Source: Filobasidium wieringae (lineage: Eukaryota; Basidiomycota; Tremellomycetes; Filobasidiales; Filobasidiaceae). From it: 64,000 nucleotides of DNA. The translations under genes and the position numbers were made by a program. Location of the stretch: positions 873,162 to 937,161 of the forward strand of contig BCIV01000003.1 in the NCBI GenBank assembly GCA_001600055.1, written 5' to 3'. The notes below the pieces were generated by a model. It was not told the DNA's origin. It saw only the letters and a program-made list of their open reading frames with translations, and made no database searches. Numbering within the stretch: the first letter of the stretch is position 1; the number at the start of each line of letters is the position of its first letter. Of this stretch, positions 45,247 through 47,625 are shown in pieces.

Positions 45247-46162
45247 ATGGCTTCTGTGAGTACAAACCGTGTTGCATCGTTACTCGCAGATCAATGCTGA
45301 CTATGGCTTATCTTGTATAGTCTCGGTTAGTATATGATGGAAAACAAGACAGACGGAATACGGAGACTGACTGTAAATTTTCCCCCTCAAATATCAACCT
45401 TCATTACCCTTCCCTTCCTGTGCCAACTATCAACTCGGAACAATGAAATTATCCTCTATTGGAAACACCTTTTATCAATTGAAATAGACTCTACGTAAAG
45501 GCTCGCGTTCTCGGACACAAGCGTGGAAAGAGGAACTCTCGACCCAACACTACCCTCGTTCAAATTGAGGGAGTTGAGAACAAGGAGGCCGCTCAGTTCT
45601 ACCTCGGAAAGGTGGGTTTCAGGATGAATAGTCGGGATTCGGTTCATTGGGTGCCACCTCGAGAGAAAGAAATGGAAGGAGGGAAAGGAAGCATGGCGTA
45701 TCTGATGACCTTCAAGCGGCATTGCGGGATAGCTACGAACGGTTGAAACCGAGATGAAACCCTGCAAAAGAAAACACGAGCACCCACCATGAACCGGATT
45801 TCGACTACGCTGCACAACAACGGAAATACTGATATGTCCTTGTTACCTATAGCGAGTTGCTTACGTCTACAAGGCTAAGAGGGAGATCGCTGGATCCAAG
45901 GTCCGCGTCATGTGGGGGTGAGTTGCGAATCTCTTTCCTTTGCGGTGAAAACAGTGTCTGATACAGATTCATTGGCATGCAGACGTGTCTCCAGGCCTCA
46001 CGGAAACTCTGGTGTCGTCAAGGCCAAGTTCTCCTCGAACATGCCCGCTCACTCTTTCGGTGCCAGCGCCCGTATCGTGAGTAAACTCTGTTCTTTGCGC
46101 ATTTCCGCACTCTCAGCTGATCCGTATCCCTTACGCAGATGCTCTTCCCCTCCACCATCTAA
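45247..46162 (+). CDS. RPL33: 60S ribosomal protein eL33 (L35a), six exons including a 5-nt micro-exon
   Basis: Structural protein of the large ribosomal subunit. Exons: 45247-45255, 45321-45325, 45488-45611, 45853-45917, 45983-46076 and 46139-46162. They total 321 nt, exactly 106 codons plus stop, close to yeast L33 (107 residues). The protein reads MASSRLYVKARVLGHKRGKR, then QFYLGKRVAYVYKAKREIAG, KVRVMWGRVSRPHGNSGVVK and KFSSNMPAHSFGASARIMLF, ending PSTI. These are the conserved eL33 blocks. Exon 2 is only TCTCG, bounded by TATAG and GTTAGT. Without it, exon 1 (ATGGCTTCT) cannot join the ACTCTACGT exon in frame. Introns are 65, 162, 241, 65 and 62 nt, so two exceed the local norm. The coding call is near certain; the micro-exon is inferred from frame and splice sites. 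Confidence 0.95.
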
Positions 46163-46651: not shown

Positions 46652-46675
46652 GTTTTTCGATACTTTGCACAATTT
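46652..46675 (+). repeat. Core repeat, copy A
   Basis: GTTTTTCGATACTTTGCACA is followed by ATTT. It matches the 20-bp core TTTTTCGATACTTTGCACAT of the copies near 47.1-47.6 kb except for the last base. No GGACA array or CG run follows, so this copy is the shortest. Confidence 0.75.
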
Positions 46676-47050
46676 ATTTAATGCCTAGCACACTTGACTT
46701 CTAACTTTCGCGAGACTGCTACCTGGCCGAACACTGGTCGTATTGGGCATGTATGATGCACAATCATCAACGGAGATATCACAATTGTCAGATGTTGTTG
46801 TGGACCGAAATTTGGACGGAAATCAAGAAGAATAGGTTTCCGCTACTTTAGACATTTCAGTGCAAGCTTGACAAACAGACGACTCCTAAATCAACTTCTG
46901 ACGAATCTGATGCGAATACGGTAATCACAAGCGACTTGGCCCAAGTATGCGGTAGGTAGGATGTACAGTAAGTACGTACGAAGCAAAGCCTGATCGATGC
47001 TTTAAACGTTCCAAAAAGTCAAGCTGGGACGAATTGGAGGTAGAGGTACG

Positions 47051-47199
47051 TTTTTCGAGACTTTGCACATTTGTCCACCGTGGACAAATTGGTGGACATG
47101 GTGGACAAACGGTGGACAAGCGATGGACAAAGTTCGCGCGCGCGATCAGCCTCATCTGAGCATTCACCAAAATAATGTAATGTGCAAAGTATCGAAAAA
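47051..47199. repeat. Copy B: core repeat with an inverted partner, MITE-like 149-bp unit
   Basis: The left end carries the core (TTTTTCGAGACTTTGCACAT). The right end (47179-47199) carries its reverse complement, AATGTGCAAAGTATCGAAAA plus a final A. The 21-bp ends differ at one position. Between them lie a 10-bp-arm palindrome (47069-47089, TTTGTCCACCGTGGACAAA), further GGTGGACA units to about 47131, and a CG run (about 47144-47153). Terminal inverted repeats around non-coding sequence suggest a miniature transposable element, but no target-site duplication is evident. Confidence 0.65.
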
Positions 47200-47331
47200 T
47201 GCTGAGATCAATAATTCGGCACTGAAATATCATTGAAACATGCCCGGGGTGATTGTTTCAGTGTATAATATGACGTACGATACATTTGGAGTTGACCAGT
47301 GAGCGTATTGGTGAGTTGCGTACAGAACCGA

Positions 47332-47416
47332 GTTTTTCGATACCTTGCACATTTTGGACCGGTGGACAATTGTCCCCTTTGCGCGCGCGGGACAACGGAG
47401 TGTCCCTTTTCGACGT
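47332..47416 (+). repeat. Copy C: core, GGACAATTGTCC palindrome and CG run
   Basis: The core TTTTTCGATACCTTGCACAT differs at one base. It is followed by GGACCGGTGGACA, the perfect palindrome GGACAATTGTCC (47364-47375), CCCTTT, a GCGCGCGCGG run, GGGACAACGGAGTGTCCC (another interrupted palindrome) and TTTTCGACG. It aligns with copy D over about 80 bp. Confidence 0.7.
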
Positions 47417-47539
47417 GGAAAAGAGAGGCAGGATGGGTTCCGCAGTACGGCTTACACCGTCACAAAGGTTCACAGTGCGATACAAGGGTTTATTGTGGTC
47501 TTTAATAGCACAACGGCGATGAATACGAGTCGAAATCAG

Positions 47540-47625
47540 TTTTTCGATACTTTGCACATTTGGGACAAGCGGGACAATTGTCCCCTTTTACGCGCGGTGA
47601 GAGGGACATTTGTCCCCATTTCGGT
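47540..47625 (+). repeat. Copy D: core, GGGACAATTGTCCC palindrome and CG run
   Basis: A perfect core, then GGGACAAGC, the 14-bp palindrome GGGACAATTGTCCC (47571-47584), CTTTTACGCGCGG, GAGGGACATTTGTCCCC and ATTTCGG. The order of parts matches copy C. A weaker partial core (CCTTGCACACT) appears near 47770. Confidence 0.7.

Follow-up and report, generated by a model that had tools for sequence, protein, structure and literature searches.

The window, a stretch of 64,000 nucleotides of the Filobasidium wieringae genome (contig C3:873162-937161; genome of 19.76 Mb in 33 contigs), contains within about 1 kb several copies of a 20-bp sequence, referred to here as the core. This interval lies downstream of an intron-rich gene for ribosomal protein eL33, of which one exon is confirmed by Pfam (PF01247, 55.2 bits against a cut-off of 27) and the others were read by eye. 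To the right of the core interval, the nearest scored coding segment starts at about 49.3 kb. Elsewhere in the window, a karyopherin gene is most similar, among named organisms, to Naganishia (62%) and next to Kwoniella (57%), with a 99% match to a JGI entry, which suggests a host among the tremellomycete yeasts near Filobasidiales. The first-pass annotation had described the 1 kb around the cores as otherwise non-coding, a description that needs qualification given the eL33 exon close by. The features are as follows.

45483-45734, + strand: open frame with an exon of the gene for ribosomal protein eL33 (L35Ae), Pfam PF01247; context, outside the element
46653-46672, + strand: core copy A, 1 mismatch; no excess of repeats on its 3' side
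46836-46855, + strand: degenerate core copy, 5 mismatches, from the PWM scan; also grouped in family D1
47051-47070, + strand: core copy B, 1 mismatch; left arm of an inward-facing pair
47070-47088, + strand: perfect palindrome TTTGTCCACCGTGGACAAA, composed of TTTGTCCAC-C-GTGGACAAA, read in the window sequence
47080-47131, + strand: 11-bp tandem array with unit GTGGACAAACG, 4.8 copies (TRF; lag-11 signal)
47134-47144, + strand: alternating CG run after copy B
47180-47199, - strand: exact core copy; right arm facing copy B, the two arms separated by 109 bp
47333-47352, + strand: core copy C, 1 mismatch
47364-47375, + strand: palindrome GGACAATTGTCC after copy C
47380-47390, + strand: alternating CG run after copy C
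47540-47559, + strand: core copy D, exact (0 mismatches)
47571-47584, + strand: palindrome GGGACAATTGTCCC after copy D
47591-47596, + strand: alternating CG run after copy D
47603-47616, + strand: second inverted repeat, GGGACATTTGTCCC, after copy D; absent from the first-pass annotation

Sequence matching in the window places the five previously noted cores within one base of their earlier positions, and the GGACA/TGTCC palindromes after copies B, C and D, each accompanied by alternating CG of at least six bases on the 3' side, were likewise recovered as described. None of 100 shuffles of the window produced any core match at up to three mismatches, and the degenerate copy scored 14.2 with the PWM against a control maximum of 12.7. 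On the 3' side of copy A only CGCG is present, with a longest direct repeat of 4 and an inverted arm of 3. The earlier view that the copies are not simple duplications needs correction for C and D, which at 86% over 59 bp resemble duplicates that arose locally.

Across the genome, the 20-mer core gives at least 39 matches at up to three mismatches (13 exact, 11 with one mismatch, 10 with two and 5 with three; all counts are lower bounds), and the reversed pattern gives none. The exact matches are spread over nine contigs. Three solitary matches with three mismatches (C7:413709, C11 and C13:151948), which show no obvious repeats, were left out, and the remaining 36 form 15 loci on 12 contigs. 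The suspicion of a dispersed family is thus borne out, and the core is not unique to this locus. If a locus counts as a main cluster when it has at least two copies or one exact copy on its own, there are nine of them, on contigs C1 (1.060 Mb), C2, C3 (the window), C5, C6, C7, C8, C9 and C21 (0.143 Mb); the other six loci (C1b, C1c, C4, C13, C20 and C21b) are solitary inexact cores. All 15 loci were analyzed as 10-kb pieces, and the statistics use 37 sites, namely the 36 matches and one five-mismatch arm on C5, with the degenerate window copy at 46836 set aside. Seven weaker places on C5, C7, C11, C13, C14 and C15, detected as a 15-mer with one mismatch or a 20-mer with three, were dismissed as chance, with no obvious repeats by eye.

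Beyond this genome, exact core 18-mers were absent from viral contigs and occurred five times among contigs of bacteria and archaea totalling 257 Gb, where about seven are expected by chance according to our own estimate. The core 15-mer, on either strand, was not found in the literature searched, and searches by topic likewise returned no description of such a family, so that we could not match it to anything described, either by sequence or by topic.

The conservation of the core is high and sharply delimited. In a PWM built from 34 sites, its positions carry 1.2-1.8 bits, except the first base (0.83), and the information falls to 0.03 bits at position -2 and 0.04 at +22. Conservation ends no more than 2-3 bases beyond the core, with G favored at -1 (22 of 34 sites) and T or C at +20 (30 of 34). 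Most of the alignments that link different loci (E up to 0.01) span 20-38 bp around a core. Longer ones link C2 with C7 (59 and 83 bp, at 76 and 71%), C6 with C7 (50 bp, 78%), C7 with C8 (55 bp, 82%) and C3 with C9 (42 bp, 83%), and alignments within loci were found on C2 (53 bp), C3 (39 and 59 bp) and C21 (39 bp). The only coreless alignment between loci, 55 bp shared by C5 and C9, turned out to be an snRNA-type promoter element. The loci have little in common beyond the core, whose edges are sharp and whose copies are independent of their flanks, as is expected of a clustered protein-binding site. The cores also lie outside every segment with a codon score of at least 10, and weaker frames overlap some of them, for example on C9 and C21; the codon scores missed small intron-rich genes such as eL33, and the lengths of gene-free sequence were not used as evidence. 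Together, these sites constitute a low-copy genome-wide family with a near-invariant 20-bp core located outside recognized genes.

Many of the cores are paired. Ten inward-facing pairs were identified, with 34-329 bp between their arms, including five in a row on C2, where the orientations alternate strictly (+-+-+-+-+-). Cores also occur in the same direction, three in a row on C8 and two on C1, and 17 of the 37 sites are unpaired. Of 200 positions compared between the arms of the ten pairs, 20 differ, 8 of them in a way compatible with G-U pairing, and a change common to both arms occurs at only two positions, both at the least-conserved first base of the core. The arms vary independently, and hence each copy appears to be kept to the consensus separately, which favors recognition by a protein and opposes selection on a stem.

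This pattern does not support the first-pass proposal that symmetry is maintained by selection on pairing, and the same tally of 20 one-sided differences against 2 common changes leaves the suggested structured transcript without compensating changes in its stem. The idea that the core belongs to a structured or hairpin RNA, or to the promoter of one, could draw on the inverted arms of the pairs and on a second long element with sharp edges, which this genome carries upstream of snRNA genes (U4 and U6). We consider it highly improbable, given that compensating changes are confined to the first base of the core, that a common transcript would hardly fit into interiors that can measure as little as 34 bp and that Rfam, at gathering score, returns nothing in the window and, in the set of 15 loci, a single U4 gene whose distance from the C9 core exceeds 2 kb. 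Selection on a hairpin or RNA was rejected on the independent variation of the arms and the empty Rfam result in the window. Two further RNA candidates were also discarded: a Burkholderia sRNA model scored 20.4 bits against a cut-off of 58 (E 0.63), and a tRNA-derived core was rejected after ARAGORN, in its bacterial setting, found no tRNA in the 15 loci. Single-strand folding of the stretches following four window copies gave z values of -3.84 after D, -1.21 after B, -0.25 after C and -0.47 after A, so that only the stretch after copy D folds unusually. In one paired unit on contig C2 (L012:4627-4792), repeats of the GGATCTGAATCG type form a long imperfect palindrome between the arms, for which miRNA-precursor scores are weak and far below the cut-off.

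The snRNA-type element is an observation of its own. It comprises 27 bp within a conserved stretch of approximately 45 bp, followed at several loci by a TATA-like motif. One U6 and one U4 snRNA gene have it 23-25 bp upstream of the end called by Rfam. Nineteen matches were found at up to three mismatches, 17 of them beyond U4 and U6, compared with none for the reversed control; they include C9:335346-335372 (L019, L053), C2:626614 (L051) and C5:969279 (L052), with 16 more elsewhere. Rfam, applied to eight loci of the element, gave matches only at the U6 and U4 loci. Two loci (L056 and L057) share similar unannotated sequence downstream of the element, perhaps a non-coding RNA gene.

Repeated sequence accumulates mainly on the 3' side of the core. 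The 80 bp on this side contain 262 direct and 111 inverted 6-mer repeats, compared with 25 and 26 in shuffles, and the 80 bp on the 5' side contain 43 and 39, compared with 27 and 34. The contrast is lost at 80-160 bp, where direct repeats number 56 downstream (25 in shuffles) and 71 upstream (27 in shuffles). This count takes inward-facing pairs from both ends, and the non-redundant test of interiors is the better one. In the 21 main-cluster interiors, the longest direct repeat averages 8.0 bp against 5.4 bp and the longest inverted arm 4.86 against 4.18, CGCG is present in 52% against 13%, and a run of four C or G in 67% against 31%; none of 400 control draws reached any of these four values. 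When all 27 interiors are considered, 4 of 400 draws reach the value for the inverted arm and none those for the other measures. The six solitary inexact cores show no significant excess of repeats (in 400 draws, their values are reached between 121 and 382 times), and 3' repeats are consequently not obligatory. Direct repeats are also short at some exact or near-exact cores, such as window copy A (4 bp) and C1a (5-6 bp). The plan outlined in the first-pass annotation, a core followed on its 3' side by repeats, symmetry and CGCG, thus extends to the main clusters, with other sequences, but not to the solitary cores.

These repeats have a preferred spacing. At lag 11 they number 101; shuffles give 5.5, and 5000 draws of control pieces average 9.5 and never exceed 44. 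A second peak occurs at lag 22 (52 against 4.9). Lags 9 (41), 8 (32), 15 (32) and 13 (30) are raised as well, against about 6, and the 5' flanks give 34 repeats at lag 11 over 37 x 80 bases, where about 13 are expected from control pieces. The lag-11 signal originates from 8 of the 27 interiors, on contigs C2, C3, C6, C7 and C8; the interiors of C2, C6, C7 and C8 are partly alignable, and therefore the 11-bp period does not represent eight independent events. Other clusters have other periods, read from the sequence as 8 and 13 bp on C9 and 9 bp at C21a. The units themselves are local. Queries of the genome with the C2 and C7 array units gave no match beyond their own clusters, and a 20-mer from the GGACA array of the window, at three mismatches, gave four matches, two at the locus and two elsewhere, the latter each with three mismatches against one match for the reversed control. 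What recurs is the plan and in part the period, not the repeat unit.

A pattern of this kind could also arise if the core were a site for a nuclease, a recombinase or a replication block, at which recurrent breakage and repair on the 3' side generate short tandem duplications and palindromes, the repeats being scars instead of sites. The mostly one-sided, locus-specific repeats are in line with this explanation, as is the period common to C2, C3, C6, C7 and C8 despite their different units, but the other periods at C9 and C21a and the scarcity of direct repeats at copy A and C1a are not, and we judge it very unlikely.

The genes surrounding the cores offer no common theme, with the proviso that the gene models are rough. 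Pfam was applied to ten frames neighboring the main clusters, and eight gave a match. By eye and with Pfam, the neighbors include eL33, a class I tRNA synthetase, Rpn5, an M1 peptidase and a proline dehydrogenase, together with a histone H3 fragment (23.1 bits, under the cut-off of 26.4) and a hydrolase and a phosphoribosyltransferase that are also below the cut-off. A promoter regulon was rejected on these grounds, as the neighbors are unrelated and their orientation is mixed (tandem, convergent and divergent); such a regulon fits the core sites poorly.

The main rival to a binding site is a transposon end. The core would then be the terminal inverted repeat of an old non-autonomous DNA transposon of the foldback or MITE-like type, the 11-bp repeats would be subterminal sites for its transposase, and the present copies would be eroded units and solo ends. 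The ten inward-facing pairs, with 34-329 bp between their arms and five of them consecutive on C2, speak for this origin, and sites in all three gene contexts are compatible with it. Parallels exist in the literature. According to PMC4763223, terminal and subterminal repeats are important for cleavage by the domesticated hAT transposase Kat1 of K. lactis, and the subterminal motif is a single sequence, TGAATT. The family described here resembles such hAT ends in combining a terminal inverted repeat with short repeats on the inner side, and differs in that the inner repeat changes from cluster to cluster and that no hAT match lies near a core. PMC4079207 describes Tetris, a foldback transposon of Drosophila virilis whose inverted ends enclose tandem repeats and which exists in many rearranged forms. 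Our family resembles Tetris in both traits. It differs in that its repeats are locus-specific and 11 bp long, against about 220 bp in Tetris, that its ends measure no more than 20 bp, that target duplications do not exceed chance and that 17 of the 37 copies have no partner.

Several observations weigh against a transposon end. The target-duplication score over the ten pairs is 1.8, compared with 1.64 for mismatched flanks, which is the level of chance; in favor of a transposon, two of the ten pairs have a 4-bp flank match, in one of them a directly abutting though self-complementary CATG. Internal homology between loci is small even though the cores are often identical, and three array queries gave no convincing match outside their own cluster. 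Neither target-site duplication above chance nor the common internal sequence of a MITE or foldback family was found. Besides the unpaired sites and the three consecutive same-direction copies on C8, there are exact solo cores on C6 and C9 whose 10-kb loci contain no partner. A search with transposase profiles for hAT dimerization, MULE and DDE_1 detected five hAT dimerization matches in the genome, which is a point in its favor, but these lie on C5, C6, C19, C22 and C23, approximately 160 kb or more from any core. MULE gave no matches, and neither did DDE_1, for which the control was uninformative. The miniature transposon suggested in the first-pass annotation is accordingly doubtful in its simple form, and we regard a transposon end as unlikely, although less so than the other alternatives considered.

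The distribution of the clusters raises the further question of a centromere determinant, with one cluster per chromosome. Nine main clusters on nine different contigs, short dyad symmetries at these clusters and the small number of RVT_1-type retroelements that could mark other centromeres (6 matches) would suit such a role, but a permutation places nine clusters on nine contigs in 13% of cases by chance, and 15 loci fall on 12 or more contigs in 32%. No GC trough was found within the 10-kb loci. Contig C16 has no match at up to three mismatches, and C11 has a single chance-like match with three mismatches and no obvious repeats; on both contigs, telomere-like repeats occur no farther than about 230 bases from either end. 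The telomere pattern itself gives 83 matches genome-wide against 89 for the reversed control, and it is the position at contig ends that carries this judgement. A required centromere element was rejected because these two contigs, telomere-like at both ends, have no credible core, and a centromeric role is scarcely probable at all.

Some contig ends merit a separate remark. The starts of C11, C16, C17, C19, C22, C24 and C31 contain, by eye, pieces of apparently one sequence (GAGACTCTCACTTCTACTGCTTAGAGCTCG onwards), near some of which CCCTAAC telomere-like repeats occur, as if an element or subtelomeric repeat were located at chromosome ends. Contig C31, of 48,771 bases, has telomere-like repeats near both ends and could be a mini-chromosome or an assembly fragment. 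The six RVT_1 reverse transcriptase matches are distributed over C5, C13, C19, C24 and C25.

The clustered protein-binding site, one of three options in the first-pass annotation, fits best, with binding itself predicted from sequence patterns. We tentatively favor, at close to even chances, the interpretation that the loci are clustered recognition sites for one putative DNA-binding protein, accompanied by helically phased accessory sites. The 20-21 bp core would be the recognition sequence of a single sequence-specific DNA-binding protein or complex and, in the nine main clusters, would anchor a nucleoprotein assembly reaching in the 3' direction over the accessory sites. These sites, often GC-rich or palindromic, would often be one helical turn (11 bp) apart and hence on the same face of the DNA, and at inward-facing pairs two assemblies may meet or bridge. 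Selection on protein contact would hold the core copy by copy, and the accessory repeats would change fast and become locus-specific. Our guess is that such an assembly has a chromosome-structural or repressive role. Against this interpretation as a whole we count the incomplete one-sidedness of the repeats, the other raised lags, the partly alignable interiors of C2, C6, C7 and C8 and the six solitary cores without repeats. A near-invariant site of 20 bp is also long for an ordinary transcription factor.

Two known arrangements provide points of comparison. Plasmid iterons, at replication or partition sites, are short repeats spaced by about a whole number of helical turns, often with inverted repeats, and are bound co-operatively. 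The core clusters share the short helically spaced repeats and the inverted repeats, but they are chromosomal, occupy about 15 loci and set a fixed core beside repeats that differ between loci. In homotypic transcription-factor clusters, one site is repeated several times over 1-2 kb of non-coding DNA, and the core is likewise present several times over such a length. Unlike in such clusters, the core is longer and far more invariant, its neighbors lack a common theme and one unit, on C7, lies between two convergent genes.

A more far-reaching version of the proposal treats the combination of a common core and locus-specific phased repeats as a chromosomal landmark, in which one protein reads the core and each cluster has its own repeat, in the manner of plasmid iterons. 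The repeat might give each site an identity of its own within a shared system that pairs, partitions or silences chromosomes; alternatively, an enzyme that acts on the core might keep writing new 11-bp repeats beside it. We consider this distinctly unlikely.

If the core is a transposon end, the family would show how the tandem repeats in tiny elements diverge past recognition while the ends stay fixed. If it is a binding site, a basidiomycete yeast would have a genomic address of 20 bp that hardly varies, and a single oligonucleotide could serve to isolate the protein that reads it. A constant core beside helically spaced, locus-specific repeats is unusual and calls for a mechanism.
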